Under the pieces are notes generated by a model, which did not search any database, was not told the DNA's origin, and saw nothing but the letters and a program-made list of their open reading frames with translations. Positions 15,721 through 41,307 of a stretch of DNA of 64,000 nt are shown in pieces. Origin of the DNA: Verrucomicrobiota bacterium (GTDB taxonomy: Bacteria > Verrucomicrobiota > Verrucomicrobiia > Opitutales > Opitutaceae); assembly GCA_016222805.1 (NCBI GenBank), contig JACRQG010000025.1:124001-188000 (forward strand). The letters run 5' to 3'. Position 1 is the first letter of the stretch. The number at the start of each line of letters is the position of its first letter. The translations under genes were made by a program, and so were the position numbers.

Positions 15721-15749
15721 GGCCGCCGTCCGCCCCCGGCCACCGCGCT

Positions 15750-16991
15750 CTACTCGTAGCGCAGCGACTCGATCGGATCGAGCGCGGCCGCCTTCATCGC
15801 CGGGTACAGGCCGGCCCCGACACCGATGGCGGTGCAGATGAACAGGCCGATCGCGGCCCAGTCCCAGGGAAAGACCACCGAGGCGTTCATCCACAGGGCC
15901 AGGCCGTTGCCCGCGACCACGCCGAGGAGAATTCCCACGACGCCTCCGGTCAGCGATAGGACCACGGCCTCGATGAGGAACTGCGTGAGGATGCTCACCC
16001 GCCGGGCCCCGATGGACTTCCGGACCCCGATTTCCTTGGTGCGCTCCGTCACGCTCACCAGCATGATGTTCATGATGCCGATGGACGCGGCCAGGAGCGC
16101 GATGCCGCTGATGACCAGGGCCCCGGCCCGCACGGCATCCGCCACCTTGGCAAACGCGGCGATCAGCGAGTCGTTGGAATAGAGCTCAAAGTCGTTCTCC
16201 TCGTCCGCCTTGAGGCTGCGCACGATGCGCATGGCCGTGATAGCGCGATCGACGGTCTCGTTGTACAGCGCCTGCGAGGGGGCCTGCGTGGCGATGTTGA
16301 CGGTGTAGCGCGCCGCCCCGTAGTCGCTGAGGAAGCGAGTGATTGGCACCATCACGAAATCGTCCTGCGTCTGGCCGAAACTCGTGCCCTTCTCCGCAAA
16401 GGTCCCCACCACCGTGTAGGCCCGGCCGCCGATCTTGATCATCTTCCCGAGCGGGGATTCCGAAGGAAACAGCTTCTTCAAGACCTCCTGGCCGATGATC
16501 GCCACCGGACGGGCGAGATCCACATCCTCCGCGGTGAAGTTGCGGCCGGCGTCGATGGAAAACTGGTTGGCGAGGAGGAAGAACTCGTTGGTCCCGCCGA
16601 AGCTGAGCCCGGGCTCGGTCTTCCGGTTGGCGTAGGTCGCCTGCACGGCGCCGTCCCGGTAGAAGACCTTCAGGCAGACCACCTCGGTGACATCCTCCAT
16701 CAGCTTCCGGTAACGCTCGGCCTGCGCCAGGGTGATGTTGCGGCGCATCTCGATCCGCCTCCGGGCATCGCCGCTCATGTGCATGCCGGTCGGGTATTTT
16801 CCGATCTGGAACATGTTCACGCCGAGGAAGCTCAGGCCGGTCTCGATCGAGCCACGCATCGCCGACACCGTCGTCATCACCCCGATGACGGAGAAGACGC
16901 CGATGGTGATGCCCGACATGGTGAGGAACGAACGCAGCTTGTTCACCCCCAGGGAGAGAAACGCCATCCGTAGAATCTCGGAGAAGAGCAT
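15750..16991 (-). CDS. ABC transporter permease, MacB/FtsX family (second permease)
   Basis: 413 residues with the MacB topology: helix near 20-42, a large periplasmic MacB_PCD domain (about 45-270), then three helices within about 285-405 forming the FtsX domain. The segment TERTKEIGVRKSIGARR after helix 2 is the cytoplasmic coupling region typical of this family. Last gene of the adaptor-ATPase-permease-permease operon, 21 bp after the first permease. The two permeases are about equally long and related, so they may form a heterodimer. Confidence 0.88.
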   Translation of the reverse strand: MLFSEILRMAFLSLGVNKLRSFLTMSGITIGVFSVIGVMTTVSAMRGSIETGLSFLGVNMFQIGKYPTGMHMSGDARRRIEMRRNITLAQAERYRKLMEDVTEVVCLKVFYRDGAVQATYANRKTEPGLSFGGTNEFFLLANQFSIDAGRNFTAEDVDLARPVAIIGQEVLKKLFPSESPLGKMIKIGGRAYTVVGTFAEKGTSFGQTQDDFVMVPITRFLSDYGAARYTVNIATQAPSQALYNETVDRAITAMRIVRSLKADEENDFELYSNDSLIAAFAKVADAVRAGALVISGIALLAASIGIMNIMLVSVTERTKEIGVRKSIGARRVSILTQFLIEAVVLSLTGGVVGILLGVVAGNGLALWMNASVVFPWDWAAIGLFICTAIGVGAGLYPAMKAAALDPIESLRYE

Positions 16992-17012
16992 CGGTGGTCC
17001 TCGGTTACCGGT

Positions 17013-18263
17013 TCACTCGTAACGCAGCGCCTCGACGGGATCGAGGCGCGACGCCCCCCAAGCGGGCGCAAAGCCGGAGACGATGCCCGTCACGATCGAC
17101 ACCACCATGCTGATCACCATGAGCCCGGCGGAGAACTCCACCGGCAGCGCCGGCAGCGCGACGCTGATCCCGAGGCAGGTGAAAAACGTGATCGCCAGCC
17201 CGACCACGCCGCCGATGAGGCAGATGGACACCGCCTCGATCAGGAACTGCAGGAGAATCGTCCGGCGCCGGGCGCCAAGCGCCTTCCGCGTGCCGATCTC
17301 CTTGGTGCGCTCCTTCACGCTCACGAACGTGATGTTCATGATGCCGATGGCCCCGACGAAGAGGGAAAGCCCGGTGATGAAAAGACCGGCGACCGCGATG
17401 CCGGTCTTCACCGGATCCAGCTGCTCCTTGAACGCCTGCTGCTGGTTGATGGAGAAATTGTCGCGCTCCCCCGGAAGTTGCCGGCGCACCCGCCGCATCG
17501 CGCCGGTCAGTTCCTCCTCCGCCTGGGTCATGCGCAGCTTGTCGCGCACCTTCACCCGGAGTTCCAGGTCGATGCGGCTCCCCCAGTACTTCCGCAGGGC
17601 GTTGAGCGGAACGACAATCTGGTTGTCGAAGCTGAACAGCCCGAGGAACTCCCCCTGCTTGGCCAGGACGCCGATGACGGTGAAATGCTGGCCCCGGATG
17701 TCGACCACCTGGTCGAGCGCGGACCGCCCCGGGAAGAGATTCTCCGCCACACTCGAGCCCAGGACGCAGACCTGGCGCCCGGTGTTGGCCTCGACGTCGT
17801 TGAACAGGCGGCCGTCAGTCACGTCGGTGGTGACAATCCGGGAGTAGTCGGCCGTGGTTCCGAAGATCACGATGCCGGTCAGCTTCACGTCGCCGGCCTT
17901 CACGCTCGTGCCCCGCCCGGCCACCGGCACGGCGACCTCCAGCAGCGAATTCGGCGTGTTCTCGATGATGCGATTGAGCTGCTCGGCCATCTCGAAGCGA
18001 ATCGGCGGCCGGTTGACGTAGTTCCACCAATCCTCCACGCGCCGCCACGGCCAGCGCTGCACGTACAGCATGTCCTCGCCCAGCATCGCCAGGCTGTTGC
18101 GGAATCCGATGTCGATGCCATTGATCGCCGTGCCCATCAGCGTCACCGCCACGATCCCGATGATCACCCCGAGCGCGGTGAGCACCGATCGCATCGCGTT
18201 CGCCCGGATCTGGCCGAACGCGATCCGGAACGACTCGGTGAACTCGTAGATCGTCCGGGTCAT
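17013..18263 (-). CDS. ABC transporter permease, MacB/FtsX family (first permease)
   Basis: 416 residues with the same architecture as the neighbouring permease: N-terminal helix (about 25-45), periplasmic MacB_PCD domain, and three C-terminal helices preceded by KERTKEIGTRKALGARRR. The start is placed at the ATG at 18263, five bases after the stop of the ATPase gene; a TTG at 18272 would overlap it. Together with the ATPase and the adaptor it would export a periplasmic or membrane substrate through an outer-membrane channel; no TolC-like gene is in the operon. Confidence 0.88.
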   Translation of the reverse strand: MTRTIYEFTESFRIAFGQIRANAMRSVLTALGVIIGIVAVTLMGTAINGIDIGFRNSLAMLGEDMLYVQRWPWRRVEDWWNYVNRPPIRFEMAEQLNRIIENTPNSLLEVAVPVAGRGTSVKAGDVKLTGIVIFGTTADYSRIVTTDVTDGRLFNDVEANTGRQVCVLGSSVAENLFPGRSALDQVVDIRGQHFTVIGVLAKQGEFLGLFSFDNQIVVPLNALRKYWGSRIDLELRVKVRDKLRMTQAEEELTGAMRRVRRQLPGERDNFSINQQQAFKEQLDPVKTGIAVAGLFITGLSLFVGAIGIMNITFVSVKERTKEIGTRKALGARRRTILLQFLIEAVSICLIGGVVGLAITFFTCLGISVALPALPVEFSAGLMVISMVVSIVTGIVSGFAPAWGASRLDPVEALRYE

Positions 18264-18268
18264 GAAGT

Positions 18269-19009
18269 TCAAGCGACGGTGGTGTCGCTCTCGATCAGGC
18301 CGTCGCGCAGGCGCACGATCCGCCGGGCATGCCGGGCGATGTCCTCCTCGTGGGTCACCACGATGATGGTGTGGCCCTGATCATAGAGCTGCTCGAACAG
18401 GCCCATGATCTCCTCGCCCGTCTTCGAGTCGAGGTTGCCCGTCGGTTCGTCCGCCAGCAGGATGGACGGGTGGTTGACCAGGGCGCGCGCGATGGCAACG
18501 CGCTGGCGCTGGCCGCCCGAAAGCTCGTTGGGCCGATGGTGCACGCGGTCGCCGAGCCCCACGTTGCGCAGCGCGGCAAGCGCCTTCTCGTGGCGGGCGT
18601 GCGCGGGGATGCCGGCGTAGATGAGCGGCAGTTCCACGTTGTGCAGGGCATCCGACCGCGGCAGCAGGTTGAAGGTCTGGAAGACAAAGCCGATCTCGCG
18701 GTTGCGGATCTCCGCCAGCTCGTCGTCGACCATGTGCGCGACGTTCTTGCCGTTGAAGTCATACCGGCCGGCCGTCGGCGTATCGAGGCAACCGAGCATG
18801 TTCATCAGCGTCGACTTGCCCGAGCCCGATGGCCCCATGATGGCGAGATACTCGTTGCGGTAGATCTCGAGGTTGACGCCGCGCAGGGCGTGGATCGTCT
18901 CCGACCCCATCTTGTAGAGCTTGGTCACCCCCTCGATCTTGATCACGAGGGCACCGGGAGGGCGGACCGTGCGGCGGCGGGCGTCGGCGGGAGCAACAGG
19001 AGGGATCAT
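18269..19009 (-). CDS. ABC transporter ATP-binding protein (MacB/LolD type)
   Basis: 246 residues. Walker [10 protein letters not shown] (59-67), Q-loop [11 protein letters not shown], signature [15 protein letters not shown], Walker [14 protein letters not shown] and the switch His in [12 protein letters not shown] are all intact, so it is an active ATPase. Sequence pattern is that of the LolD/MacB/FtsE group that serves FtsX-type permeases. An N-terminal extension of about 20 residues precedes the domain; the true start could be slightly downstream. Confidence 0.92.
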
Positions 19010-19050
19010 GGAAATTCGCCGGGGATCCGGGAGGGCGGCGGCAGCCGGGA

Positions 19051-20463
19051 CTACTTCTTGGGTTCTTCCTTCTTGGGCTTCGCAATCGTGACGACCATGT
19101 CGTCCTTCAGCTGCCGGCTGATGGCCGCATAGCTGCCGGACACGATCTCGTCCCCTTCCTTCACGCCGGACTTCACCTCGATGTGGGTGTTATCGGCGAT
19201 GCCGACCTCGACGTGCTGCAGCTTCACCTTGTCGCCCTTCTTGAGGAAGACGACCTTGGAAAGGCTCTCGCGGCTGCGCCGCGCCTCGCGTTTCTCGGCG
19301 GCGGCATCGAGGGCGGTGCCCGTCTTGTTCTCGGCGTCCTTCGCCGCCTTCTTTTGCAGCTCCTCCGTGGTCATTCCGCCGGTGGCGCGCACGGTCACAC
19401 TCTGGATCGGCACGGCGATGACGTTCTCAACGGTCTTGGTCTCGATGTCGGCGGTGGCGCTCATGCCCGGACGCAGCTGCACCCCTTGGTCGGTGATCCG
19501 GATCTTGACGAGGAAGTTGGTGACGTCGTCGGACATGGCCGACAGCTGGGAGGACGCGCTGCTGCCCTGGGCGGAGGAGCTGATCTCCGACACGGTGCCG
19601 CTGAACTTGCGGCCCGGATAGGCATCGATGGTGATGATGGCCTTGTCGCCGAGCTTGACGTTGACGATGTCGTTTTCGTTCACCCGCACGCGCAGCTCCA
19701 TGTTCGCGAGATCGGCCACGCGCATGATTTCGGTGCCGGCAAACTGCCCGGTGCCGACCACGCGCTCCCCGACTTCGCTGTTCTGGGAGCTGATCGTGCC
19801 ATCCATCGGGGAGTAGATCACCGTCTTGCTCAGTTGATCCCGCGCCTGGTTGAGGGACCCTTCCGTGCGTTTGATCTGGGCGACGGAATTCTCGAAATTG
19901 GCCTGCGCCACCTCCAACGCGGTCTTGGAGGCGAGGTACTCCGATTCGGAGAGCAGCTTCTGGCGGTAAAGATCCTCGGAGCGCTTGAAGTCATCCTGCG
20001 CCTTGAGCAACTGGGCCTTGGACTGGACGGAACTGGCCCGGGCGGCGGCCAGGTTGGCCTCCTGCTGGTCCACCTGCGCCTGGTAGAGGTCGGGCTTGAT
20101 CCGCACGATCAGGTCTCCCTTCTTGACCTTGGCGCCCTCCTTGAGCGGCAGATCGATGATTTCGCCGGCCGCCTCGGGGGAGATCTTGACCTCCACCTCT
20201 GGCTGCACCTTGCCCGTGGCGGTGACCACCTGAGTGATGGTCTTGACGATGGCCTTTTCCGTCGTCACCGGAGTGCCCTGGGTGGAGCTGCGGCTCTTGA
20301 AGTAGGCCGCCGTGCCGAGACCGGCGAGGAGCAGCACTCCGCCCAGGATGTACCATTTGGTGCGGGATCGCCGCGGCGCGGGAGCTGCGGAAACGGCGCC
20401 AGCCTTGGGAGCCGTGGGCGAGGGACTCATGGCGGAAGGTTGCACGGTAAGGGAAACGTTCAT
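19051..20463 (-). CDS. MacA-like periplasmic adaptor (membrane fusion protein)
   Basis: 470 residues. One membrane helix near 35-55 ([20 protein letters not shown]) is followed by the biotinyl-lipoyl half-motif ([20 protein letters not shown]), a long coiled-coil hairpin (about 105-200, rich in Gln/Ala/Lys), the second lipoyl half and beta-barrel ([20 protein letters not shown]) and a membrane-proximal domain. It would bridge the inner-membrane permeases to an outer-membrane channel. A basic insert (about 385-410, [16 protein letters not shown]) is unusual. First gene of the operon; start chosen at 20463, with an ATG at 20430 as alternative. Confidence 0.88.
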
Positions 20464-20856
20464 GGGAGAAGATTGCCGACGCCAACGCAAGCGGGCTGTT
20501 GCCCGGTCTCCGCTGTAAAGAAATGTGGCCGGCCCCACAACAGGCCGGCCACACAACACAACTGGTAACTACGAACGAGACCGGAGTGAAGGCCCGCCGG
20601 CCCGAAAGAAAACGTCTTTGCGACCGACCGCCGGCCATTCGCGATGAACAGCGGGACGGAGACGGTTGAAAAGCGGTGCCCTTCGGTGGCGGACATGGCA
20701 CCAAAACACTCCGGATCCGCGAAAGTTACAGGGAACTTGTGATGAACGGTAAACCAACGGGTCGGACGGACCCGCCCCGGGGCCGGGGGCCGCGCCGCCC
20801 CCCCACCCACAGGACGCAAGCCCCAGGCAGAGCAAGTTCCCGCGGCTGGCGGTCGA
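20464..20856 (-). promoter_or_regulatory. Leader/promoter region of the efflux operon, 393 bp without a gene
   Basis: No coding frame I can support. It contains a perfect 11-bp inverted repeat (20524-20534 with 20543-20553, loop of 8) about 60 bp upstream of the adaptor start; on the minus strand it is followed by ATTTCTTT, so it could be an attenuator-like terminator or an operator. Two degenerate copies of the GCGACGAA-type element lie 21 bp apart (20620-20627 GCGACCGA, 20641-20648 GCGATGAA). Confidence 0.45.
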
Positions 20857-21435
20857 TCAGCAGGCCGAATCCATCCGCCTCCCGCAGGCTTCCCGGAACG
20901 CCGCCACACTGACCAGGCCGATCCCCGTCAGTTCGAAGGCCCAGTTCATCTTGAAGCCAAACCACCGGGTGCCGAGAAACACGTCCACATGGTGGAACGA
21001 GATCGCGCGAACCACGATGAACGTCAGGAGGAAAAGGGAGCCCAGCGCCAGCAGCTTGTGGCGGATCCAGAAGGTCCGGAATCGCCAGAAGGACCAGCAC
21101 CCCAAAGATCCCGCGCCGCCGAGGGCCGCTATCACAAACCACTTTTGAACCTCCCGCCGCTGGTCGTACCAGCCGCGGTGACGGGCGACGACGCGGCCGA
21201 GGTCAGTCAACAACGACTGCAGGTCGAGCTGCTTGTTGACGCACAGGCCTGCCATCACAAACGCGGCCACCAGCCACGGTCCGCGTTCCTGGAACGAGGT
21301 CGAACTTCCGCCCTTCGCACGGGCGGCGAGAATGGCCAGCACCGCACCGATCGCGTACGCGGCGACGGTAAACCAGCCCATGAAGCTCGGATCTCCAATC
21401 CCAGGTCGCCAGGCGATTTCTGAAGTGAGGTCCAT
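20857..21435 (-). CDS. Hypothetical four-helix membrane protein
   Basis: 192 residues with four hydrophobic segments (about 20-40, 55-75, 110-130 and 138-160). The opening segment ends in RPGIGDPSFMGWFTVAAY, and a later HxxD (FHHVDVFLG) precedes the C-terminal helix. The Gly/Trp-rich pattern looks conserved-family-like, but I do not recognise a function. Start at the ATG at 21435; the longer frame from 21510 has a basic, non-membrane prefix. Confidence 0.7.
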   Translation of the reverse strand: MDLTSEIAWRPGIGDPSFMGWFTVAAYAIGAVLAILAARAKGGSSTSFQERGPWLVAAFVMAGLCVNKQLDLQSLLTDLGRVVARHRGWYDQRREVQKWFVIAALGGAGSLGCWSFWRFRTFWIRHKLLALGSLFLLTFIVVRAISFHHVDVFLGTRWFGFKMNWAFELTGIGLVSVAAFREACGRRMDSAC

Positions 21436-21568
21436 GGGCGTCGTGCAGGTCGGCCTACGCTGGCGACTGGTCCGCCTCCCGCAATGCCGGATCTGGCGGA
21501 GTCCCGCCACCCGTGCACTGCACGGCTGCGACCCGGCACCGGGTCTTTCGGCCGAGCCCGTGGTCGGC

Positions 21569-22453
21569 TTACCTCAGCTCGGTCAGGAACCCGGGCAGCG
21601 ACCACCGATTCTGCATGCTGTTGGGGTTGCCGTACACGGTGGGAAACTGGGTCGCCAGGGCTGCACGGATTTCCTCCTGCGACTTTCCCTGGCGGATCTG
21701 GGCGGCGACGTCGTCCCGCAGTTTGACGACATTGTCGCGGTACGTCTGCAGCCCGGCCCGGTTGGTCACCGTGCCATGGCCCGGGATCACCCGGTCGAAA
21801 TCGAGCGCGGCCATCGCGGCGTCGACGGTCTTGATCCACTCGACCAGACTGCCGCCGCCAGCGTAGTCGATGAGCGGCGTGAGCCCCGCCATCAGGTCGC
21901 CGGTGTGGATGACCCGCTGCGCCGGGAAGTACACGATCACATCGCCGTTGGTGTGGCCCCGGCCGAAATAGCGGGCACGTACTTCCTTCCCTCCCAGGAA
22001 CACCGAGGTTTCGTCGGTGAAGGTGATCCGGGCGGGTTTCAGGTTCGCCGGGGCGCCGGGCTGCTTGCCGCCGGTGATGTTGGCGCGGGCATTCTTGTGG
22101 GAGATGATCTCCGCCACTTCGATGAACCGCGTATTCCCGCCACTGTGATCGGAGTGGTGGTGCGTCGTGATCACGTACTTCACGGGCTGATTGGTGACGG
22201 ATTTCACCCGCGCGATGATGCCGTCGTAGTCCTCCTCAAATTTGTCGTCGACCAGCACGACCCCCTCGTCGGTCACGAGCACGCCCACATTACCCCCGTT
22301 GCCGATGATGACGAAGAGATCATCGGTGATCTTCTCCATCCCGAGCGGGGGGCGACCCTGTTTCTGTTTTGAGGGAGACTGGGCGAGCGCGTCAGGCGAC
22401 GCTGCTCCCAGGACAAGAAGGACGGAAGCCAACAACGAAATGAGGCTGCGCAT
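21569..22453 (-). CDS. Secreted MBL-fold metallo-hydrolase
   Basis: 294 residues with a signal peptide (about 1-24). The metal site HxHxDH is intact (TTHHHSDHSGG: His98, His100, Asp102, His103), with the later ligands in GRGHTNGD, HTGDLM and IPGHGTV. It resembles subclass B3-like/QPP-type MBL proteins found in periplasms, which include but are not limited to beta-lactamases; the natural substrate is unknown. Divergent from the NIPSNAP-like gene. Confidence 0.88.
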   Translation of the reverse strand: MRSLISLLASVLLVLGAASPDALAQSPSKQKQGRPPLGMEKITDDLFVIIGNGGNVGVLVTDEGVVLVDDKFEEDYDGIIARVKSVTNQPVKYVITTHHHSDHSGGNTRFIEVAEIISHKNARANITGGKQPGAPANLKPARITFTDETSVFLGGKEVRARYFGRGHTNGDVIVYFPAQRVIHTGDLMAGLTPLIDYAGGGSLVEWIKTVDAAMAALDFDRVIPGHGTVTNRAGLQTYRDNVVKLRDDVAAQIRQGKSQEEIRAALATQFPTVYGNPNSMQNRWSLPGFLTELR

Positions 22454-22811
22454 GGGTGGGAATGGGGTGAGGCGCGATGCTCGGGCAAACCGGTCCTGAA
22501 TCCAGCCTGGAATTCCGTCAGGTGAGGTCGACCGCGTTCCGGAGGGCCGCTCCTTTTCCCCGCCATCGTCACCGCGCACCGCCCCATGGGCGGGACTCGC
22601 CGCCGGGCTCCCCACGAGTTTGTTTGACTCCGAAACGACACGACCGATCACTCGGGGCACCCCAACCGCCCGGTTCACCCCCACCGGAATACCCCGCCTT
22701 ACGACTTGCCTTCATCTGCGTCCCGCCGACGTGCGGCGGACGTTTGCCGCTCCCTTTTCGCGCGTTGCCATCGCCTCCGCGATGGTGGCAAGCGACCAAA
22801 ACCACCCACCC
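22454..22811. other. Divergent intergenic region, 358 bp
   Basis: It should hold the promoters of the MBL gene and of the gene to the right. A short imperfect hairpin lies near 22719-22742 and a single GCGACCAA at 22792-22799. I see no gene and no clear operator. The two nearest ATGs for the rightward gene are at 22782 and the preferred GTG at 22812. Confidence 0.4.
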
Positions 22812-23630
22812 GTGAAAACACCCCCGATTCGTTCCTGCCTGATCTTCGTGCTGGCGATTGCCGGCACTGTCCGCGGTGCCGACGCCGGCCTGCCCGCCTC
22901 GCAGCCCAAAATGCTCAACATCATCCGGGAGTCGGTGAAAGTCGGCCGGGGCGCCGACCATGCCCGCCATGAAGCGGGCTGGCCCGCGGCCTACGAAAAG
23001 GCCAATTCGCCCGATTACTACCTCGCGCTCACCTCCATGACGGGCCCCTCCGAGGCGTGGTACCTGGCTCCATTCGAGTCACACGCGGCGATAGCCGCGA
23101 TGATGAAGCGGGAGGAGAAAGACCCCGTGCTCGCCGCGGAACTGGGGCGGCTGGGGGAAAAGGACGCGGAGTACCTCGAGGGCTGGCGGGCAGTGCAAAC
23201 GAAGGCCCGCCCGGATCTCAGCTTCGGCCAATATCCGAACATCGCCAAGGCCCGCTTCTTTGAGATCACGATCCTGACCGTTCGACCGGGGAAGTACGCC
23301 CTCTTCGAGTCGATTCTCAAGGCCTACAACGCCGCACGCCAGCGGGTGGCACCCGAGTCGAGCTATCGCATTTATGCCGCCATCGCGGGCACGGTGGGGG
23401 CGACCTACTACATCATCCAGTCCGTCGAGGACTATGCGCACTTCGATCGCACGGGGGACGAGCACCGCAAGACCTTTGCGGCGGCCACCCCTGAAGAGAC
23501 GGCGTTGTTCGACAAATGGGGCGACGCGGTGGTCCGCGAGGAAACTCAGCGCTTCCGGCTCGATCCCAAACAGAGCTACGTGTCGAAGGAGGCCCGGGCG
23601 TCCGACCCCGAGTTCTGGAACGGCAAGTAG
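22812..23630 (+). CDS. Secreted two-module NIPSNAP-like protein, unknown function
   Basis: About 272 residues with a signal peptide if translation begins at the GTG at 22812 (KTPPIRSCLIFVLAIAGTV). Two halves of similar pattern are visible: residues 35-135 and 145-245, each with a beta-strand/helix arrangement (YYLALTSMTGPSEAWYLAPF and YRIYAAIAGTVGATYYIIQS) that fits a dimeric alpha-beta barrel (ABM/NIPSNAP fold). No catalytic residues can be named. Start at 22782 remains possible. Confidence 0.6.
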   Translation: MKTPPIRSCLIFVLAIAGTVRGADAGLPASQPKMLNIIRESVKVGRGADHARHEAGWPAAYEKANSPDYYLALTSMTGPSEAWYLAPFESHAAIAAMMKREEKDPVLAAELGRLGEKDAEYLEGWRAVQTKARPDLSFGQYPNIAKARFFEITILTVRPGKYALFESILKAYNAARQRVAPESSYRIYAAIAGTVGATYYIIQSVEDYAHFDRTGDEHRKTFAAATPEETALFDKWGDAVVREETQRFRLDPKQSYVSKEARASDPEFWNGK

Positions 23631-23974
23631 GGCCCGCGCCTGACGCCGTGGACGGCATGGCACCGGCGCGCAACGGCCGGACGCCGTGCGGGCTTCGTCG
23701 CGGGCTCCACCAAAGTCGCGTCCGGCCGCGCTTTCGTTTCGAGTGATCCAGGTCAATGTCCGCCGGAGCTGCCCTTGCCCCAAGCAAGCCGGGGGCAAGG
23801 GCCACCCGATCACGACGCTCCGTGACGGTGGGGTCGGAAACCAGAGCGGATTCAACGGCAGTGTAGCCGCATCGGAGCGTGGCCCGCCGACGGCGGGCAG
23901 GTGACAACGTGGTCCGTGCGCGGCCACGCTTTCGCCTTCAGCCCAAATGCGGCTACAGAATCCTTGCCCGTGCG
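23631..23974. other. Convergent intergenic region, 344 bp, with nested inverted repeats
   Basis: Lies between the 3-prime ends of two convergent genes. It contains the nested inverted-repeat element at 23862-23957 (listed separately) and otherwise GC-rich sequence with no supported gene. Confidence 0.5.
23862..23957. repeat. Nested inverted-repeat element
   Basis: Outer arms TGTAGCCGCAT (23862-23872) and ATGCGGCTACA (23947-23957) are perfect 11-bp complements. Inside them AGCGTGGCC (23876-23884) pairs with GGCCACGCT (23922-23930), and GCCCGCC-GAC-GGCGGGC forms a small inner hairpin. It ends 18 bp from the TonB receptor stop, so it could work as a terminator, or it could be an intergenic repeat element; the core word TGTAGCCG recurs inside the element at 52207-52334. 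Confidence 0.65.
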
Positions 23975-26893
23975 CTAGAACCGCTTGGTCAGGCTGACGT
24001 GCATGAAGCGCCCGCGGACACTGTGGAGAGTCGTGTCGTAGTTGTCGTTGAACGCCCCGACCGAGAATGGCGCCGATTCGTTGGTGAGATTCTCCACCCC
24101 AACGGTGAGGCGCGTGTTTCGGCACCAGCCCCGCACCCACTTCTCCGGCAGGGCCACGTTGGCCACGAGGTCGAATGTCCACCACGCCTCGATCTCCCGG
24201 AAGGTGCTGCCGTTGTTGAAGGCCGGATTGACCAGGTTGGGATCGTCCTGGAAGGAATCGATCCAGTTCACGGTGAACATCGTCTCCCACTTCGATCCCA
24301 CCTTGTAGTGGAAGTTCAGGTTGCCCTTCCATTTCGGGATCGAGCCGGGCGAGAACGCGTCGGACGAGATGTCGACGAAGTGCCCGACGAAGCTCTCCCG
24401 CGCCGCTCCCGTCACGCGCTGCAGGTCCCACTTCAGGAACTGATTCAGCGCGAGGGTCGTCGTGAGTTTCCCCTCTCCCAGGGGCATCGTGTAGCCAATC
24501 GTGTAGTCGAGCCCGGCGACCTCGTTGCGCGCGAGGTTGAGGTTGGTGCCGATCACGCTGATCACCGCATTGGAGGAGGACAGCGAGCCGTCCGGCTGGC
24601 GGATCACCGCGTTGGCCAGCGGCGCATTGGGGTCGAATTGCCACACCCCGTTCTGCAGCCGGGGATAACCCTGACCCTGGCCCGCCCAGTTGGAGTTCAG
24701 GATGAACTGGGCGTCACCGGTCACGATGATGTCCCGCTTGTCCACGCGGTAGTAGTCGACCGAGACGAACAGTCCCTTGACCGCACGCGGAGACCACGCC
24801 AGGCCGGCGGTCCAGGTGTCGGACTGCTCGGGCTTGAGGTTGATGTTGCCGCCGGTCTGAATCTGGGTCTGCACGCCGGCCGGGGAGAAGCGGGAGCCGT
24901 CCGGCTTGCGCGCCGGATCGTTCACCGTCGGGAAGGAAGTGCCGACCGCCGCGTACAACTCGTTCTCCAGCGGCGCGCGAAATGCCGTGCTCTTGGTGCC
25001 GCGGACGGTGAGCTCGTCGGTCGGCTGCCAGCGCAGCCCGGCCTTCCAGTCGGTGCTCGACAGCTTGCTCTTCTGCGCCACGCGGGGATTCGAGTATTCG
25101 AACTGCTCGCGCCGCACGGCGGCATTGACACTGAGGTCGTGCGCAAAGGCCTTTTGCTTGGCCACGGGCACGATGGTCTCCAGGTAGCCCGCGTCGACCT
25201 TGCGGTCGCCCCGGAAGCTGTTGCCCGTGTTGAGGCCGAGCGCGTCGCCGGCGTTGTAGAGGGGGCCGAAGAAGTCGTCGTCGTATTCGGTCCGGTGCTC
25301 CAACCCGGCCGCGGCCTGGATGTCGCCCGCCGGCAGCGCGAAAACCGGGCCGCTGGTCTTCAGGTCGACCTGCTCGATGCCGCGCTTGGTGTTGCGCTTG
25401 TCCTGCACGGCCGTGCGCCGCAGCGCGGCGGCATTGTCGAAGGTGTAGGTGCGGCCCGTCGTCGGCGAGGTCCAGCTGCCCGTCGCGAAATTGCGCGCAA
25501 ACGGATTGAACGCACCCGAGGTCACCTCCGTGCGCAGCGCCTGCCGCGAGGGGAAGCCGCTGTCACCGCGGAAGCGGTCCATCTCCGCGTACATGTAGCC
25601 GGTATCGAACCGCCACCGGCCAATCTCGCCCTCGAAGCCGGCGAACACCCGGTACGACTCCTCCGTCCAGTAATTCCGGCGGTTGCCGAGTTCAAGCGAC
25701 CGGTAGCGCGGGAAGCTCACCACCTGCAGCGGCGTCGTCGTGCCCGCCGCCCGCGCGGCGGCGATGGCCGCCGGAGTCTCGAAGATCTCGAGATACGGGC
25801 TGTTGTAGAGTTGCTCCGCCGCACCAATGGTGAAGGGCGAAGAGGCGAGCCCGTTGTCGGTCTTCAGCTTGGTGTAGAGGAAGTCGACGCGGCCGCGGAG
25901 ATGTTCGAGGAACGAGTGCTTGCCGACGCCGTAGTAGCTCGACCGCTGCTGCCCGGGAATCGCCGGGGTCAGCTCCCGGAAGTTGTAGCGATCGGTGTTG
26001 GTGTCGTACTGCCGGTAATCGGCGATGGAGCGCGGAAACGCCACGCCCGGACGAAGGAACCCGGCGCTCGGCAGGTTCGTCTGCGCCGGCACCCCGAACG
26101 GCCCTCCCGTCGTGGTGTTGAGCTTGGTGTCCAGGCGGCCGCTGAAGCTGTCGGAACCGCCGTTGTTGCCGCCGTACGGGCGCGCGTCCGCGTTCCGGGA
26201 GACGCCGCGATCCCGTGAGTAGATGTCGTTGCGGGTGTACACGCTCGCGGCGACCAGGATGGAGGACTTGGCATCGGCAAGGCCCGTGACCAGTCCGCCC
26301 TGGACCACGGCGGCATCCTTGTCCCAGGTGTTGCCGTAGGTGAGGCGGACCTGGGTGCCCTTCGGCACGTCCAGCAGGGTGAAGTTGACCACGCCGGCGA
26401 TGGCGTCGGCGCCATAGTTGGCGGCCGCGCCGTCTTTCAGGACATCGATGCGACCGATCGCATCGAGCGGGATGAGGTTGACGTTGTTGAACGCCTGCCC
26501 GGTGCGGCGCCCGTTGATCAGGGTCAGCGTGGAGTTGGAACCAAGGCCGCGAAGGTTGATGTTGGCCGCGCCGGTGCCGCGGTTGCTGTCCTGCTCCGTG
26601 GCAGTGCCGCCAACGAAGGACGGCAGATCGCGCAGGCCCTCGATCGGGTTGTTGGCGCCCGTGAGAATCAACTGCTCCTGGGAATAGACGGTGACCGGAG
26701 CGAACGATTCCTCAAGGGCCAGCGGGATGTTGGAGCCGGCGACCACGAATTTCTCGAGCCGCACGGTTTCGTCGCGGGCGCCCGGGGCCACGCCCTGGGC
26801 GGCCAGGGTGCTGGCGGCAACGAGGGCGGCGGCGGTCGCAAGGAAGGCGAGCCCGGTCCGCACTGGCACGGAACTGGGGGATGGGTGATGCAT
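23975..26893 (-). CDS. TonB-dependent outer-membrane receptor (1)
   Basis: 972 residues with a signal peptide (about 1-33) and a short TonB-box-like segment (ETVRLEKFVVAGSNIP). The plug domain (about 50-180) has the motifs GAANINLRGLGSNSTLTLIN and IDVLKDGAAANYGADAIAGV; the C-terminal half is a beta-barrel ending in FMHVSLTKRF with terminal Phe. No carboxypeptidase-like N-domain. Such receptors import oligosaccharides or metal chelates using TonB; the ligand is unknown. The start at 26893 is the first ATG before the signal peptide. Confidence 0.9.
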   Translation of the reverse strand: MHHPSPSSVPVRTGLAFLATAAALVAASTLAAQGVAPGARDETVRLEKFVVAGSNIPLALEESFAPVTVYSQEQLILTGANNPIEGLRDLPSFVGGTATEQDSNRGTGAANINLRGLGSNSTLTLINGRRTGQAFNNVNLIPLDAIGRIDVLKDGAAANYGADAIAGVVNFTLLDVPKGTQVRLTYGNTWDKDAAVVQGGLVTGLADAKSSILVAASVYTRNDIYSRDRGVSRNADARPYGGNNGGSDSFSGRLDTKLNTTTGGPFGVPAQTNLPSAGFLRPGVAFPRSIADYRQYDTNTDRYNFRELTPAIPGQQRSSYYGVGKHSFLEHLRGRVDFLYTKLKTDNGLASSPFTIGAAEQLYNSPYLEIFETPAAIAAARAAGTTTPLQVVSFPRYRSLELGNRRNYWTEESYRVFAGFEGEIGRWRFDTGYMYAEMDRFRGDSGFPSRQALRTEVTSGAFNPFARNFATGSWTSPTTGRTYTFDNAAALRRTAVQDKRNTKRGIEQVDLKTSGPVFALPAGDIQAAAGLEHRTEYDDDFFGPLYNAGDALGLNTGNSFRGDRKVDAGYLETIVPVAKQKAFAHDLSVNAAVRREQFEYSNPRVAQKSKLSSTDWKAGLRWQPTDELTVRGTKSTAFRAPLENELYAAVGTSFPTVNDPARKPDGSRFSPAGVQTQIQTGGNINLKPEQSDTWTAGLAWSPRAVKGLFVSVDYYRVDKRDIIVTGDAQFILNSNWAGQGQGYPRLQNGVWQFDPNAPLANAVIRQPDGSLSSSNAVISVIGTNLNLARNEVAGLDYTIGYTMPLGEGKLTTTLALNQFLKWDLQRVTGAARESFVGHFVDISSDAFSPGSIPKWKGNLNFHYKVGSKWETMFTVNWIDSFQDDPNLVNPAFNNGSTFREIEAWWTFDLVANVALPEKWVRGWCRNTRLTVGVENLTNESAPFSVGAFNDNYDTTLHSVRGRFMHVSLTKRF

Positions 26894-26980
26894 GGAGGGT
26901 GTTGGTTGCAAGAATCCACCCGCCGCAACAGCAAGCGGGTGTTGGTTCTTTGCGCCGACACCACTTCCGACGGGTCCCGG

Positions 26981-27109
26981 GCGACAACGGGATTGCGACC
27001 AGGCGCTCCTTCCCAGCGCCCAATGCCCCCCGTCAGGCGACGGAATCGCGCACCGGGAATCGCCCAACTGCGCACCGGGCGCGACCAACCGCGGCGGACC
27101 CGCGACCAG
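26981..27109 (-). promoter_or_regulatory. GCGACCAA-type repeats upstream of TonB receptor 1
   Basis: Within the 248-bp spacer upstream of the receptor, GCGACCAA occurs at 27081-27088 and GCGACCAG at 27102-27109, 21 bp apart, and GCGACCAG at 26995-27002, 102 bp from the start codon. Receptor 2 (start 41000) has GCGACCAA at almost the same distance (101 bp) and another pair 22 bp apart. A role as operators is inferred. Confidence 0.45.
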
Positions 27110-27141
27110 TAGGCCACCCCGTCCGCCGCACCCGCCCCGCC

Positions 27142-27885
27142 CTATTCGAGCGACACCTCGCCGCGATCTGCCGCTCGGGCGGCGGCGAAGGTACGAGCCG
27201 CGGTCCGCCCCGGCAGTTCAAGGGGCAACACCCGGGCGCGGTCGATTTCCGGGCCCTGAATGGCCCGCGCCAGCCGCTTCGGATCCCGCGCCAGCGTCGC
27301 CGGGAAGCCGAGCGGCGTGTCGGGGCGCAGGGGATCCACCACCATCACGCGGCCGGGCACCAGGTAGGTGAGCACGGTATGTCCCTGGGGCCGCTGGCTC
27401 GATTTCGCATAGTAGGAAAGCAAGCCCGGGCTGCTCACGGTCGCCCCCTGCTCCACCAACCGCCGCAGGGCCGCCACGCTCTCGATGAAACACCCGTTCG
27501 GGAGCATCTCGCCACCCCCTCCGGCCTCCTCCAAGAGCGGGCCGTTCTCGATCACCCGCCACCGCGTGAAGCCGGGCTCGATATCCCGCAGCAGCGGGGC
27601 GAAATCCGCCTTCTCCTGGGCCAGCCGGCCGCGGTGCAGGGAGAAGCTCTGCGTGCCATCGACGTCGGAGTAGAACCAAAGCACGTCCGCGAGTTCGAAG
27701 ACCAGGGCGTGCAGCCGGGCTGGATACGGAGACCGGAGGGAGTCGTTTTCCACTTCGATGATGCGGGACCAGACATCGGGGCCGAGCAGGGCCTGGGCCC
27801 GGCGTACGTGCAGGAGCGAATCCTCCGCGCCGGAGGCGATCGCAACCACGGCCAACAGACAGGGGAAGAGGGGTGGGATTCTCAC
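27142..27885 (-). CDS. Secreted protein with possible Cys-His-Asp peptidase triad
   Basis: 247 residues from a GTG start with a signal peptide (about 1-20). The order Cys132 (PNGCFIES), His169 (PQGHTVLTYL) and Asp184 (VMVVDPLRP) resembles C39-like or transglutaminase-like papain folds, in which Cys begins a helix and His-to-Asp span one beta-hairpin. No other family features are recognised, so activity is only inferred. Two GCGACGAA-type elements 21 bp apart lie 41-69 bp upstream (27926-27954), matching those of the LytS/LytTR operon, so it is a candidate target of that system. Confidence 0.65.
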   Translation of the reverse strand: MRIPPLFPCLLAVVAIASGAEDSLLHVRRAQALLGPDVWSRIIEVENDSLRSPYPARLHALVFELADVLWFYSDVDGTQSFSLHRGRLAQEKADFAPLLRDIEPGFTRWRVIENGPLLEEAGGGGEMLPNGCFIESVAALRRLVEQGATVSSPGLLSYYAKSSQRPQGHTVLTYLVPGRVMVVDPLRPDTPLGFPATLARDPKRLARAIQGPEIDRARVLPLELPGRTAARTFAAARAADRGEVSLE

Positions 27886-27925
27886 GCCCCTGCTTTTGCT
27901 TGCCGCACGCCATCCGTGGCGGAAT

Positions 27926-27954
27926 GCGACGAACTGCGCCCACTTCGCGACGGA
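27926..27954 (-). promoter_or_regulatory. Candidate LytTR-type operator upstream of the secreted protein
   Basis: GCGACGAA (27926-27933) and GCGACGGA (27947-27954) start 21 bp apart; the first is followed by CTGC, giving the 12-mer GCGACGAACTGC also found at 30306-30317 in the LytS promoter. On the gene strand the first copy reads AGTTCGTCGC, close to the AlgR box CCGTTCGTC. It lies 41 bp from the start codon, close to the 43 bp seen for the kinase operon. Confidence 0.65.
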
Positions 27955-28173
27955 GAATCCGGCGCGCGCGCCCGGGAGACCGGACGTCGATCGCCACGCC
28001 GCCGCCCCGTGTCCCGCCTCCGGGAAGGAATGTCCCGAAAACGAGACGGGACCGATCGAAACCGGTTGGCGCGGTGTGGAGCGTCACCTGGGCCCCCAGG
28101 TCGAAACTTCGCCGGGCCGAACGGCGAGGATTACTCCATTCACCCTGCTCTGCGTCGTCGCGGATTCTCTGGG

Positions 28174-28195
28174 GGCGGGGCGACCTCGCCCCGCC
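28174..28195. repeat. Intergenic palindrome GGCGGGGCGA-CC-TCGCCCCGCC
   Basis: Perfect inverted repeat with 10-bp arms. The same core recurs at 47051-47067, 47165-47184 and 47215-47231, all in non-coding DNA. Confidence 0.7.
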
Positions 28196-28317
28196 GACAC
28201 GCCAGCAACCAAGGCAGAAGGAACCAGCTTTGCCCGGCGCGTCGCGACCCGGCGGTCCGAGCGCGACCACGCTTAAGCCTTCGGATCGCCCGTGGCGACC
28301 GCAGAGGCGACCACGCC

Positions 28318-29154
28318 CTACAGCGACTGCTTCAGCAGGCTGGAGATGCGCTCGTGATAGCCGCGACTGAGCTTCAGCTTCGTACCGTCGTGCAGGATCA
28401 CGGCGTATTCACCGGCAAAGGACGGACTGAGTTTGCGCAGGCGATCGATGTTCACGATCGTCGACCGGTGGATGCGGATGAAGCGCTTGGGATCGAGCCG
28501 CGCCTCGAGCCGCGCCATGGTCTCGCGCATCAGGTGGGCGCGGCCGTTGACGTGGAACTTCATGTAGTCGCCCTCGGCCTCGATCCAGTCGATCTCCTCG
28601 GCCTTGAGAAAGAAGATCTCGCCGGACGATTTGAGGAGGATGCGATCCCCCGGGCCCTCGGCGCCCGGGCTGCCCGCCCCTCCCGCCGCCTGCAGGTAAT
28701 CCAGGAGTTGGGTCAGCCGCGCGTTCACGGTGTCGGTCTGCCGCCGCCGGATTTCCTCCTTGGCCCGCTGCAGCGCGGCGCCGAAACGCGCATCGTCGTA
28801 GGGCTTGAGCAGATAGTCGACGGCGTGGACCTCGAAGGCCCGGAGGGCATACTCGTCGTAGGCGGTGACAAAGACGATCGTCGGGGCTTCGGCGGGCGCG
28901 AGCTGCCGGAGGGCCTCGAAGCCGTCGGACCCGGGCATCTGCACATCGAGGAAGGCGAGGTCCGGCTTCTCACGCAGGATCAGCGCCGCCGCCTCCGCCC
29001 CGTTCGCGGCTTCGCCGACCACCTCGATCGAACGATCCCGTTCCAGGAGGAGCCGGACCCCGCGGCGGGCGGCCGGTTCGTCGTCGACGATGATCGCCCG
29101 GATTCGGGCGGAGGGAGAATCGACGCGGGCGGGGGCGGAAACGTTCGTTTTCAT
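28318..29154 (-). CDS. LytTR-family response regulator
   Basis: 278 residues. Receiver domain about 18-135: acidic pair Asp24/Asp25 (IIVDDEP), phosphoacceptor Asp70 (FLDVQMPGSDG) and Lys117 (YLLKPYD). The C-terminal LytTR domain (about 170-275) contains RILLKSSGEIFFLKAEEIDW and RIHRSTIVNIDRL, which recognises direct repeats spaced about one to two helical turns apart. Its start overlaps the kinase stop by four bases (ATGA). Likely autoregulated through the repeats at 30285-30333. Confidence 0.92.
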   Translation of the reverse strand: MKTNVSAPARVDSPSARIRAIIVDDEPAARRGVRLLLERDRSIEVVGEAANGAEAAALILREKPDLAFLDVQMPGSDGFEALRQLAPAEAPTIVFVTAYDEYALRAFEVHAVDYLLKPYDDARFGAALQRAKEEIRRRQTDTVNARLTQLLDYLQAAGGAGSPGAEGPGDRILLKSSGEIFFLKAEEIDWIEAEGDYMKFHVNGRAHLMRETMARLEARLDPKRFIRIHRSTIVNIDRLRKLSPSFAGEYAVILHDGTKLKLSRGYHERISSLLKQSL

Positions 29155-30242
29155 GTGCGACAGGGCAGGATGATTTGGACCGACACGCCGCGCCCGGGTT
29201 CGCTGCGGAGCGACAGCTGGCCTTGGGCGCCGTAGATTTTCGCGAGGCGTTCGCGGGTGTTCGTGAGGCCGACGCCTTCCTTGGCCCGGCGCGTGCCGTC
29301 GCCGATTCCAGGACCGTCGTCTCGCACTTCGAGCAGCAGCCGGCCGGCTTCGACCCGGCCACTGATCTCGACGCGACCGGGGCCGGACTTCGGGGCGACG
29401 CCGTGGAGAATCGCGTTCTCCACGAGCGGCTGGAGAAGCAGGTTGGGGATGCGCGCCTCCATCGCCGCCGGCTCGATCGCGATGCCCACGCTCAGCCGGT
29501 CGGAGAAACGCATCTGCTGGATCTCGATGTACCGTTCGAGGAAGTCCATCTCCTGGCGCACCGTGACTTCGTGCACGCGGGTGTTGTCGAGCGACATGCG
29601 GAGCAGCGTGCTGAGCCGGGCGATGAGCGTCACCGCCTGGTCGTTCTTGTTCTCGCGGACCAGCACCGCGATCGTGTTGAGGGTGTTGAAGAGGAAATGC
29701 GGCCGCAGCTGCTCCCGCAGGGCCTTCAGCTCCGTCTCGACCAGGCGGGCCTCGAGCTGCACGGCCTTCAGCTCCTCGTTCTTGTAGCGCTGGTGGATCT
29801 CGAGCCCGTATCCAAAGGTGAGGACGCCCCAGTAGTACGCCATGTCGATCATGTTCCGGCCGTAGAAGCTCCGCCAGGCGGTCTGCCAGAAGTCATCCAC
29901 CGTCTCGTCCCAGAAGAGGAGATAGGACACCATCCGGCCGAGGTAGTAGGTGGCCATGACCACGAAGCTCATGCCCAGATGGAATCCCACGCCCCCCACC
30001 CAGCGCCCGCGACGGAGGGGCATCCGATCCCGCATCTTGAGGATGAGCGGAGCCATCAGCGCCCACATCACCGCGCGGCCGAACTGCGGCAGGGCGACCT
30101 CCACGAAATCCACGCCCCCCGGCCGCATCATCGCCCGGTTGTTGAAATAGACCTCCACGGACAACACGAAGCCGAGGAACAACCAGCCGGCCACGAGCAC
30201 GGCATAGCGGATCCACGGGTTGTGCATGATACGGGCGTTCAT
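29151..30242 (-). CDS. LytS/YehU-type membrane sensor histidine kinase
   Basis: 363 residues. Four membrane helices in the first 140 residues with no periplasmic sensor domain, then the His_kinase domain with LREQLRPHFLFNTLNTIAVL (His about 180) and a HATPase domain (LLLQPLVENAILHG, then RDDGPGIGDGT). This is the HPK7 kinase partner of LytTR regulators. Start at the ATG at 30242, 43 bp downstream of the first of three GCGACGAA repeats. The stop overlaps the response regulator start by four bases. Confidence 0.9.
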   Translation of the reverse strand: MNARIMHNPWIRYAVLVAGWLFLGFVLSVEVYFNNRAMMRPGGVDFVEVALPQFGRAVMWALMAPLILKMRDRMPLRRGRWVGGVGFHLGMSFVVMATYYLGRMVSYLLFWDETVDDFWQTAWRSFYGRNMIDMAYYWGVLTFGYGLEIHQRYKNEELKAVQLEARLVETELKALREQLRPHFLFNTLNTIAVLVRENKNDQAVTLIARLSTLLRMSLDNTRVHEVTVRQEMDFLERYIEIQQMRFSDRLSVGIAIEPAAMEARIPNLLLQPLVENAILHGVAPKSGPGRVEISGRVEAGRLLLEVRDDGPGIGDGTRRAKEGVGLTNTRERLAKIYGAQGQLSLRSEPGRGVSVQIILPCRT

Positions 30243-30284
30243 CCCCCTGTCATCGGAGCGATTCAAGCGGATAAAGCCGGCCTT

Positions 30285-30333
30285 GCGACGAACCGGCGGC
30301 TTTCCGCGACGAACTGCACCTGGCTGCGACGAA
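30285..30333 (-). promoter_or_regulatory. Triple GCGACGAA direct repeat upstream of the LytS/LytTR operon
   Basis: Three exact copies of GCGACGAA start at 30285, 30306 and 30326 (intervals 21 and 20 bp), between the glucokinase stop and the kinase start. Gene-strand reading gives TTCGTCGC, with GGTTCGTC in the first, one base from the AlgR box CCGTTCGTC. Two-helical-turn spacing fits LytTR dimers. A weak TTTATCC lies between the repeats and the ATG. Expected chance of three phased 8-mers is very low. Confidence 0.7.
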
Positions 30334-30377
30334 GCCCGCGCCACCGGTTTCGGGTCCGGGCCGCCGTCTTCCCCGGC

Positions 30378-31118
30378 TCAACCGAGGGTCTCGGCGGCCC
30401 ACCACGCCGCCCCGGCGATGCCGGCGCGGTTAAGCAGGCGGGCGGGCACCAGTCGGGCCCGGGGCCGGATATGGCGGAAGAACTTCTCGTGTTTGGAGCT
30501 CGCCCCGCCGCCGATGATAATCAGCTCGGGCCACATCAGGCGCTCGAGTTCGGCGATGAAGTCGTGCAACCGGTCGCCCCATTCCTCCCACGAAAGATCC
30601 TTCCGGTCGCGCGCCGCGGTCGAGACGTACTTCTCGGCGTCGCGCCCGCCCTTCCACGGGAAGTGACCGAATTCCAGCGGATATACCACCCCCTGGTACG
30701 CCAGGCACGTGCCCACCCCGGTGCCGAGGGTCAGAAAGAGCACCTTGCCCAGGAAGCCCCGGCCGGCCCCGAAGCGCATCTCCGCAACCGCCGCCGCCGC
30801 GGCGTCGTTGATCATCGCCACCCGGCATCCCGTCGCCCGGCCAAAGAGCCGCGCCGCATCGCAGCCGACAAAGCGCGGATGCAGGTTGGCCGCCGTCCGA
30901 ATCCGGGCCCCTTCGACCACTCCGGGAAAACCCACCCCCACGCGGCCCCGCCACTTGAAATGAGCCGTGATCTCGGCCGCGGCCTTGGCCAGCGCCGCCG
31001 GAGTCGTGCGCCGATCCACCTCGATCCGGTACCGTTCGGCCAGCAACCGGCCCGTCCGGGTGTCCACCGGCGCGCCCTTGATTGCCGAACCACCAATATC
31101 GATGCCGAGTGCCTTCAT
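30378..31118 (-). CDS. ppgK: Polyphosphate glucokinase (ROK family)
   Basis: 246 residues. The ATP/polyP loop GIDIGGSAIKG opens the protein, the ROK core GTGVGTCLAYQGVVYPLEFGH lies near 140-160, and the WKGGRDAEKYVS and WEEWGDRL segments are characteristic of polyphosphate-dependent glucokinases rather than other ROK kinases. It phosphorylates glucose using polyphosphate, preferably, or ATP. The zinc-binding Cys motif of ROK repressors is absent. Same strand, 135 bp upstream of the kinase operon. Confidence 0.9.
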   Translation of the reverse strand: MKALGIDIGGSAIKGAPVDTRTGRLLAERYRIEVDRRTTPAALAKAAAEITAHFKWRGRVGVGFPGVVEGARIRTAANLHPRFVGCDAARLFGRATGCRVAMINDAAAAAVAEMRFGAGRGFLGKVLFLTLGTGVGTCLAYQGVVYPLEFGHFPWKGGRDAEKYVSTAARDRKDLSWEEWGDRLHDFIAELERLMWPELIIIGGGASSKHEKFFRHIRPRARLVPARLLNRAGIAGAAWWAAETLG

Positions 31119-31233
31119 GGGGGTACGACTAACAAAACCCGGGCGATTCCGTTGGCAACCCGGCGTTGCAGCTCCCCGCTCCGATTATCCCGGCCAGCAT
31201 CCCCCGCAGGCGAAGCCTCCGCGAGCGTCGCGT

Positions 31234-41000: not shown

Positions 41001-41307
41001 GGCGATGGTGCGGAGATTCCGGGGAGACGACCAACCTCGGTCGTCCGTGCCGTTGTCTCCTCGCAACGAATACCGGCGACGCGGCGCTCAAAACCGCAAT
41101 GCGACCAAGGGCAGCCCGTTGCGCCAGAACGCCGGTTTTTTGAGCCGAGTGGCAGCGGTACCGGAACGCCCAGCGACCAACCGGGTCCATTCCGGCGACC
41201 AAACCCCCGCCGGGCGCGACGATCGCCCTGACGCCGTCATCGGCACGCGCAGGCACCGGGCCGCGTCCCGACCCGCCACGGTCCGACGGCGGCGGGGTCG
41301 ACAACCA
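41001..41307 (-). promoter_or_regulatory. Upstream region of TonB receptor 2 with GCGACCAA repeats
   Basis: GCGACCAA occurs at 41101-41108, 41173-41180 and 41195-41202; the last two start 22 bp apart and the first is 101 bp from the start codon. ACGACCAA at 41027-41034 is a weaker copy. The arrangement parallels that upstream of TonB receptor 1. No gene is seen in this 307-bp interval. Confidence 0.5.

Follow-up and report, generated by a model that had tools for sequence, protein, structure and literature searches.

The window analysed here, a stretch of 64,000 nucleotides from a Verrucomicrobiota bacterium of the Opitutaceae (positions 124,001 to 188,000 of contig JACRQG010000025.1, assembly GCA_016222805.1), carries a two-component system and an adjoining gene, all on the minus strand. 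A LytS-type sensor histidine kinase (29151..30242; PF06580, E 3.9e-27, and HATPase_c) probably starts at 30227 rather than 30242, because the start is conserved among orthologs. The LytTR response regulator (28318..29154) combines PF00072 (E 6.7e-25) and PF04397 (E 1.8e-24), both above cut-off, and a protein with a signal-peptide-like start, judged by eye, is encoded at 27142..27885. Short phased repeats precede the kinase gene and the secreted-protein gene. These repeats are probably operator arrays which the regulator would bind and through which it would control a small regulon. The proposal rests on the arrays themselves, their place and period, their conservation at orthologous promoters and their association with the presence of the regulator. 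The predicted regulon comprises the kinase–regulator operon, the adjoining, possibly papain-like secreted protein, a downstream macAB-type exporter and a SeqA homologue.

Phased repeats at two promoters of the window

The earlier note on this DNA described three exact copies of the octamer GCGACGAA on the plus strand, at 30285, 30306 and 30326, and the intervals of 21 and 20 bp hold. Read on the gene strand the octamer is TTCGTCGC. The kinase promoter has a proximal site at 30285..30292 (minus strand, like all sites of the window given below), which ends 10 nt before a TTATCC core, a second site 21 bp upstream (30306..30313) and a third 20 bp farther upstream (30326..30333). Two copies had also been claimed at the promoter of the secreted-protein gene. 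The proximal one (27926..27933) is exact, but the distal one (27947..27954) reads GCGACGGA, that is TCCGTCGC on the gene strand, with one mismatch. The 12-mer GCGACGAACTGC is common to both promoters as stated, and its only plus-strand copies in the window are at 27926 and 30306.

The octamer alone is mildly frequent: the window contains 12 copies on both strands compared to 5.9 ± 2.6 in shuffled sequences, and 4 of 100 shuffles reach 12. Pairs of exact octamers separated by 10–15 bp are found at the kinase promoter only, in a genome of 7.9 Mb, the reversed-pattern control giving one place. When up to one mismatch is allowed, a period of 21 bp occurs at five places in the genome: two are the promoters of the kinase and of the secreted gene, and three lie inside called genes. 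The first two arrays are 2.4 kb apart; a pair this close together would be expected among five random places with a probability of about 0.006. With up to two mismatches the same period occurs at 54 places, against 14 for the reversed control. We opened 13 of the 49 places with exactly two mismatches, 10 of which are inside called genes; two of the three non-coding ones belong to one array at C3:182620, and the third is at position 41195 of the window. Pairs of the pattern TTSGTCGC (gap 12–14) occur at three places in the genome and at none in the control. All three are in the window: two correspond to the kinase promoter and the third (41173-41202) is upstream of a gene for a TonB receptor. 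In these counts genes were called by a simple codon-usage scorer trained on seven genes of the window, and not by a standard gene finder.

The repeats could in principle reflect chance or coding constraints, since TTCGTCGC is a common word in GC-rich genes, where it encodes Phe-Val-Ala. As a matter of fact, 13 of the 16 opened period-21 places outside the two promoters fall inside called genes. However, the kinase array lies between genes, its exact form occurs nowhere else in the genome and it is conserved at the promoters of orthologs, so that this origin seems extremely improbable to us; we rejected it on the basis of the genome-wide pair counts, the gene locations and the comparison with shuffled sequences. 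The counts inside called genes indicate that weak pairs are mostly coding and that strong pairs are not. A mobile or interspersed repeat is also unlikely, because exact pairs occur at one promoter and not throughout the genome.

The gene neighborhood is itself conserved. The regulator adjoins the kinase in 25 of 27 orthologous regions, and the two others (G027 and G068) end near a contig end. A homologue of the secreted-protein gene, detected with tblastn, directly follows the regulator in 15 of the 27 regions, several of which are cut by contig ends. The recurring order in relatives is kinase, regulator, secreted gene and macA, the latter being often near the cassette; in G054 the secreted gene is on a separate contig, near macA, and its site is still present. 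A ROK-family gene (30378-31118 in the window) lies directly upstream of the kinase promoter and is also found in 19 of the 27 regions. Phased pairs in the opposite orientation are seen between the regulator and the secreted gene in two genomes (G025:C117:93518-93546 and G052:C3:87399-87427).

Residue D70 of the regulator is invariant among five orthologs. Its nearest named relatives are records labelled Verrucomicrobia, Opitutaceae, Opitutia and Opitutus sp., and a sequence comparison of its LytTR domain with the PDB returned a single weak match (3d6w, E 0.0003). The secreted protein matches no Pfam or NCBIfam family at E 0.001. Residues Cys132, His169 and Gln79 are invariant in 8 orthologs. 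A search with its AlphaFold2 model (pLDDT 81) against known structures using Foldseek gives weak matches to papain-like cysteine peptidases (best E 0.013, none below 0.001), and Z scores against AvrPphB, vasohibins and CPR-C4 reach 6.7 at most, a level which may reflect a common arrangement only. It is possibly a secreted cysteine-peptidase-like protein.

Conservation of the arrays and further candidate targets

Exact pairs with a gap of 11–14 bp are present in 25 of 120 genomes of the family, at 34 places versus 8 for the reversed control. Twelve of these places, in 9 genomes, are just upstream of kinase orthologs, 2 precede the secreted gene and 2 a SeqA homologue. The remaining 18 consist of 11 places inside called genes, 6 outside, one of which (in G105) lies in a long, apparently coding open frame, and a last place that was left unopened.

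Orthologous promoters were then compared with a looser definition, a pair at 20–22 bp with at most one mismatch per unit. Such pairs occur in 15 of 28 promoters of kinase orthologs (mean of dinucleotide shuffles 0.03, none on the opposite strand), in 8 of 21 secreted-gene promoters (0.03, with 2 on the opposite strand) and in 5 of 22 promoters of SeqA homologues (0.015, none on the opposite strand), and the spacing of 21 bp is by far the commonest. Kinase promoters that bear an array have two to four units in steps of 12, 20 and 21 bp, followed in many cases by TTATCCGCTTGA or a close variant. The 28 kinase orthologs are those with at least 54% identity, many weaker matches lying outside the set. 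The secreted-gene set consists of 20 of 27 genomes plus G020, with G064, G058, G119, G022, G039 and G059 uncounted. The SeqA set includes 22 of 31 places: G047 and G037 were dropped because the match does not start at the start codon, and the second G064 copy, G110, G057, G012, G026, G113 and G009 were left out as truncated, with a late start or with stop codons. For macA, 30 loci were retained out of 94 genomes with a match.

Thirteen further named loci were considered, five of which were set aside as matching G043, G023, G109, G106 and G116. A pair is found upstream of the kinase in 6 of the other eight, and L280 has one unit; L282 cannot be judged because its kinase match is partial, so that the upstream stretch is not the promoter. 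No site was seen in L060 (42% identity), which is outside these counts, and L061 was left out.

The earlier note proposed that the LytS/LytTR pair regulates itself as well as a secreted target close by. Phylogenetic footprinting supports this, as do the period of two helical turns, which is also that of LytTR sites (PMC11347149), and the association described below between sites and regulator at the SeqA-homologue and macA promoters. The nearby target alone gives an incomplete picture: a MacAB-type operon (15750-20430), a SeqA homologue and perhaps a TonB receptor also have phased sites.

The MacAB-type operon codes, on the minus strand, for a MacA/RND-type periplasmic adaptor subunit (19051..20430), a MacB/LolD-type ABC ATPase (18269..18946) and two MacB-type FtsX permeases (17013..18263 and 15750..16991). 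Its promoter has a distal site with one mismatch, TTCATCGC (20641..20648), and a degenerate proximal site with two, TCGGTCGC (20620..20627), separated by 13 nt, which corresponds to a period of 21 bp. Stronger macA pairs are found in the regulator-bearing relatives G025, G023 and G043. The exporter resembles MacAB- and darobactin-type tripartite exporters, matched in NCBIfam, in its adaptor, ATPase and FtsX permeases. Unlike these, it has its ATPase and two permeases encoded in separate genes, with a conserved leader hairpin ahead, and it scores below the curated MacA, MacB and Dar equivalog cut-offs.

The macA leader contains a hairpin followed by a T-rich stretch (20525..20552, minus strand), which is terminator- or attenuator-like. 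Of 30 loci, 22 have a CAGTTGTGTTG-like box; an 11-bp hairpin comes after it, often with a T-rich run behind, and both sides of the hairpin have changed at 6 of 11 pairs in 14 aligned leaders. Genomes that lack the regulator, G066 and G072 among them, have this conserved leader too. It looks like an attenuator; Rfam at gathering scores has no match in the region 15000-31200 of the window. Near macA, two relatives have LytTR-only matches, G031:C75:46639-46923 (87%) and G014:C540:4112-4399 (73%), which may be remnants of this regulator or single-domain LytTR forms of it.

Outside the window, the same genome has a third array between genes (C3:182620-182669), which consists of CTAGTCGC, TTCGTCGC and TTTGCCGC and precedes the gene of a 170-aa SeqA homologue (G000:C3:182712-183221). 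This protein matches PF03925, the SeqA C-terminal domain (E 1.2e-12; 48.3 bits for a cut-off of 25.5), and aligns over residues 1-152 with the SeqA structure 3fmt. It misses the NCBIfam SeqA equivalog cut-off (54.5 of 185 bits), and is therefore a homologue rather than a proven equivalog. It is found in 30 of the 120 genomes (E ≤ 1e-8), and in G020 its promoter has five units at 21–22 bp, one with two mismatches. To our knowledge, SeqA is not expected in this phylum; in a literature search for SeqA and Verrucomicrob*, the co-mentions look unrelated by title and abstract. SeqA acts on hemimethylated GATC made by Dam. The genome contains one D12-class DNA methyltransferase (G000:C50:265189-265854), whose surroundings look phage-type.

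The TonB receptor gene (38232-40874) is preceded by ATCGTCGC, TTGGTCGC and TTGGTCGC at steps of 21 and 22 bp (41173..41223, minus strand), and the last two units form the only TTSGTCGC pair (gap 12–14) of the genome outside the kinase promoter. Based on these sites, the receptor may tentatively be assigned to the regulon. Two more units are seen farther down before the same gene (window 41063-41223), and a comparable region rich in TTGGTCGC precedes a TonB receptor in G052.

In 18 regulator-bearing genomes, pairs with at most one mismatch occur at 96 places, compared to 12 for the control. The surroundings of 30 of these, taken from 20 places chosen by eye and from 9 further loci, were judged with the gene caller, 17 being inside called genes and 13 outside. 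As leads, these pairs point to macA in G025, G023 and G119. Protein sequences examined by eye lead to a duplicated ABC permease (G023 and G043), TonB receptors (G052 and G064), an M16 peptidase (G006) and a small secreted protein (G015), and in G065 an array is linked to a DUF4199 protein (PF13858).

Sites and presence of the regulator

The SeqA-homologue promoter has at least one site with at most one mismatch in 13 of the 14 genomes that have the regulator but in only 1 of the 7 that lack it (Fisher, P = 0.0009), and the macA promoter in 12 of 12 compared to 6 of 16 (P = 0.0009); both P values are too small, since the genomes are related. We set aside G068 in the first comparison, because it has a kinase ortholog only, and G027 and G068 in the second; all of them have the site. 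Within a single genus, G025 has the regulator and a macA array, while G066, whose leader is alike, has neither. G074 and G040 looked like exceptions, but each has an ortholog of the regulator (67%) beside macA.

A number of observations weigh against the proposal that the LytTR regulator of this locus binds the arrays. A pair is missing from 13 of the 28 kinase promoters, and 6 of them lack any site with at most one mismatch, single sites of this kind being found in 7.2 of 28 shuffled promoters on average. The secreted-gene set shows two pairs on the opposite strand as well, and its contrast between genomes with and without the regulator (16 of 16 versus 2 of 3) is not significant, in a test without power. 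When exact octamers alone are counted at macA, the difference (3 of 12 versus 1 of 16) is not significant either. G096 has the regulator and no site with at most one mismatch at its SeqA homologue. Conversely, a macA octamer with at most one mismatch is present in G021, G085, G107, G071, G017 and G039, which have no ortholog; G085 and G071 have a 48–49% paralog that may share the site, and the macA sites of the four others are unexplained. Last, in G037, which lacks an ortholog, the gene in front of a paralogous kinase–regulator pair has an exact array upstream of it, so that the paralog might use the same site.

These last observations could mean that the arrays are bound by another regulator, either a paralogous LytTR protein or a different transcription factor, of which the kinase operon would be just one target. 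The macA sites that persist in six genomes without the ortholog and the exact array of G037 would fit, and the genome studied here does have two paralogs of the regulator, on C51 and C13. On the contrary, the sites of the SeqA homologue follow the ortholog (13 of 14 versus 1 of 7), and the 10.7-kb region around the paralog on C51 contains no phased pair. We consider this explanation rather improbable, and retain the regulator encoded next to the arrays as their likely ligand.

Promoter geometry, sign of control and comparison with known systems

The 9-mer TTCGTCGCA, derived from 84 paired sites, describes the unit, with C preferred three bases before. The octamers are mostly 12–13 bp apart and their steps are 20–22 bp, mostly 21, which fits repeats of about 9 bp with spacers of 10–13 bp. 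The earlier note compared the unit to the AlgR box CCGTTCGTC. The TTCGTC part is shared with the box as given in PMC4064291, but the preceding CCG is weakly preferred at most, given the base frequencies at positions -3 to -1 of the 84 sites (C 0.65, C 0.40 / G 0.42, G 0.39). The RcoM unit TTCNNGCA is about as close.

The conserved core TTATCCGCTTGA of the kinase promoter (30263..30274, minus strand) is a putative -10 element and start region. A unit ends 9–10 nt before the TTATCC core in 13 of the 28 kinase promoters, and a second unit is found one period farther up in 12 of these 13, G114 having a single unit. In three kinase promoters without array (G047, G027 and G068), the same core is instead preceded by a good -35 element, TTGACT or TTAACT. 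In the secreted-gene, SeqA-homologue and macA sets, an AT-rich hexamer lies 30–32 nt after the proximal unit; the profiles are soft, because the anchor is misplaced for G025, G054 and probably G014 (secreted gene) and for G000 (macA). The kinase profile was restricted to the 13 promoters already seen in phase with the core, and G043 (secreted gene), G049, G115 and G047 (macA) were omitted.

The geometry also has its counterexamples. The kinase promoter of G065 has no unit at the -35 place, its array ending 31 nt before a core-like sequence. In the macA set, a window at 49 nt is as AT-rich as the one at 30 nt, and the most AT-rich window of the secreted-gene set is ATTT directly after the unit. 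No clear -10 is seen at the expected position before the secreted gene of the window, and this genome's sites at macA and at the SeqA homologue are degenerate.

We suggest the following arrangement. Units repeated every 20–22 bp on one face of the helix would let LytTR domains bind side by side. In target promoters, the proximal unit tends to end about 30–32 nt before a -10-like hexamer, the usual activating place of LytTR proteins, and many kinase promoters, including this one, have an extra unit one period closer, at the -35 place, where binding should repress, as an autoregulatory brake. RcoM and CoxC serve as precedents: these LytTR proteins use three direct repeats in steps of 18–21 bp, and the CoxC repeats, which overlap the -35, repress, while the upstream triplets of RcoM activate (PMC11347149). 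We lean slightly towards this polarity, in which the targets are activated and the kinase promoter is repressed; the -10 assignments are putative, and control would presumably depend on phosphorylation.

The opposite polarity is a variant of the same explanation and is compatible with its main part. The regulator would activate its own operon, the array replacing the -35 element, and repress or modulate the other promoters. At the -35 place of the 13 core-phased kinase promoters, every hexamer differs from TTGACA by more than two bases, and a missing -35 match is common in activator-dependent promoters. Moreover, most LytTR regulators activate, as stated in PMC11347149; the same paper reports that CoxC repeats over the -35 repress. 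With TTATCC taken as the -10, the proximal unit falls in the -35/-10 spacer, a repressor-like place. This variant is possible and in our opinion somewhat unlikely.

Repression of the kinase promoter and activation of the targets may be part of a promoter code, in which units lie only upstream of the -35 at the targets, while at the regulator's own promoter an additional unit, closer by one period, would serve as a brake. It is conceivable, and at this stage doubtful, that the LytTR system couples the envelope to chromosome replication, the former through MacAB-type export and the secreted cysteine-peptidase-like protein, the latter through control of the SeqA homologue, with the number and register of the 21-bp repeats setting the sign of control.

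The analysis predicts where a LytTR two-component system of Verrucomicrobiota would bind and which genes it would control, and makes two-component control of a SeqA homologue directly testable. Promoters that differ by one repeat, and thus by one helical period, offer a natural comparison of how the register of an operator determines whether a gene is activated or repressed. The regulon is new and the operator is of a known kind; the link to SeqA and MacAB is the unexpected part.

Among known systems, LytTR activators of the AgrA/ComE type use two 9-bp repeats spaced by about 21 bp and located directly upstream of the -35; the sequence of these repeats is different from that described here and these activators are linked to peptide signals. 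Within the collection of papers searched, none combined Opitut* with LytTR, and a single one, on Acinetobacter and review-like by its record, combined LytTR with MacAB and two-component. AlgZR of Pseudomonas aeruginosa is also a two-component system with a LytTR regulator, whose box shares TTCGTC with the present unit. AlgR boxes are scattered, some being hundreds of bp upstream and one reversed at algD (PMC4064291), whereas the sites described here form phased arrays. RcoM-1 and CoxC (PMC11347149) are close in layout: three direct repeats of an 8-bp unit in steps of two helical turns, the RcoM units having spacers of 12–13 bp, compared to octamers mostly 12–13 bp apart here. CoxC senses CO as a single protein, and cox genes are likewise under the control of RcoM-1; unlike these, the system proposed here is a two-component system, with one to five units per promoter and several targets.

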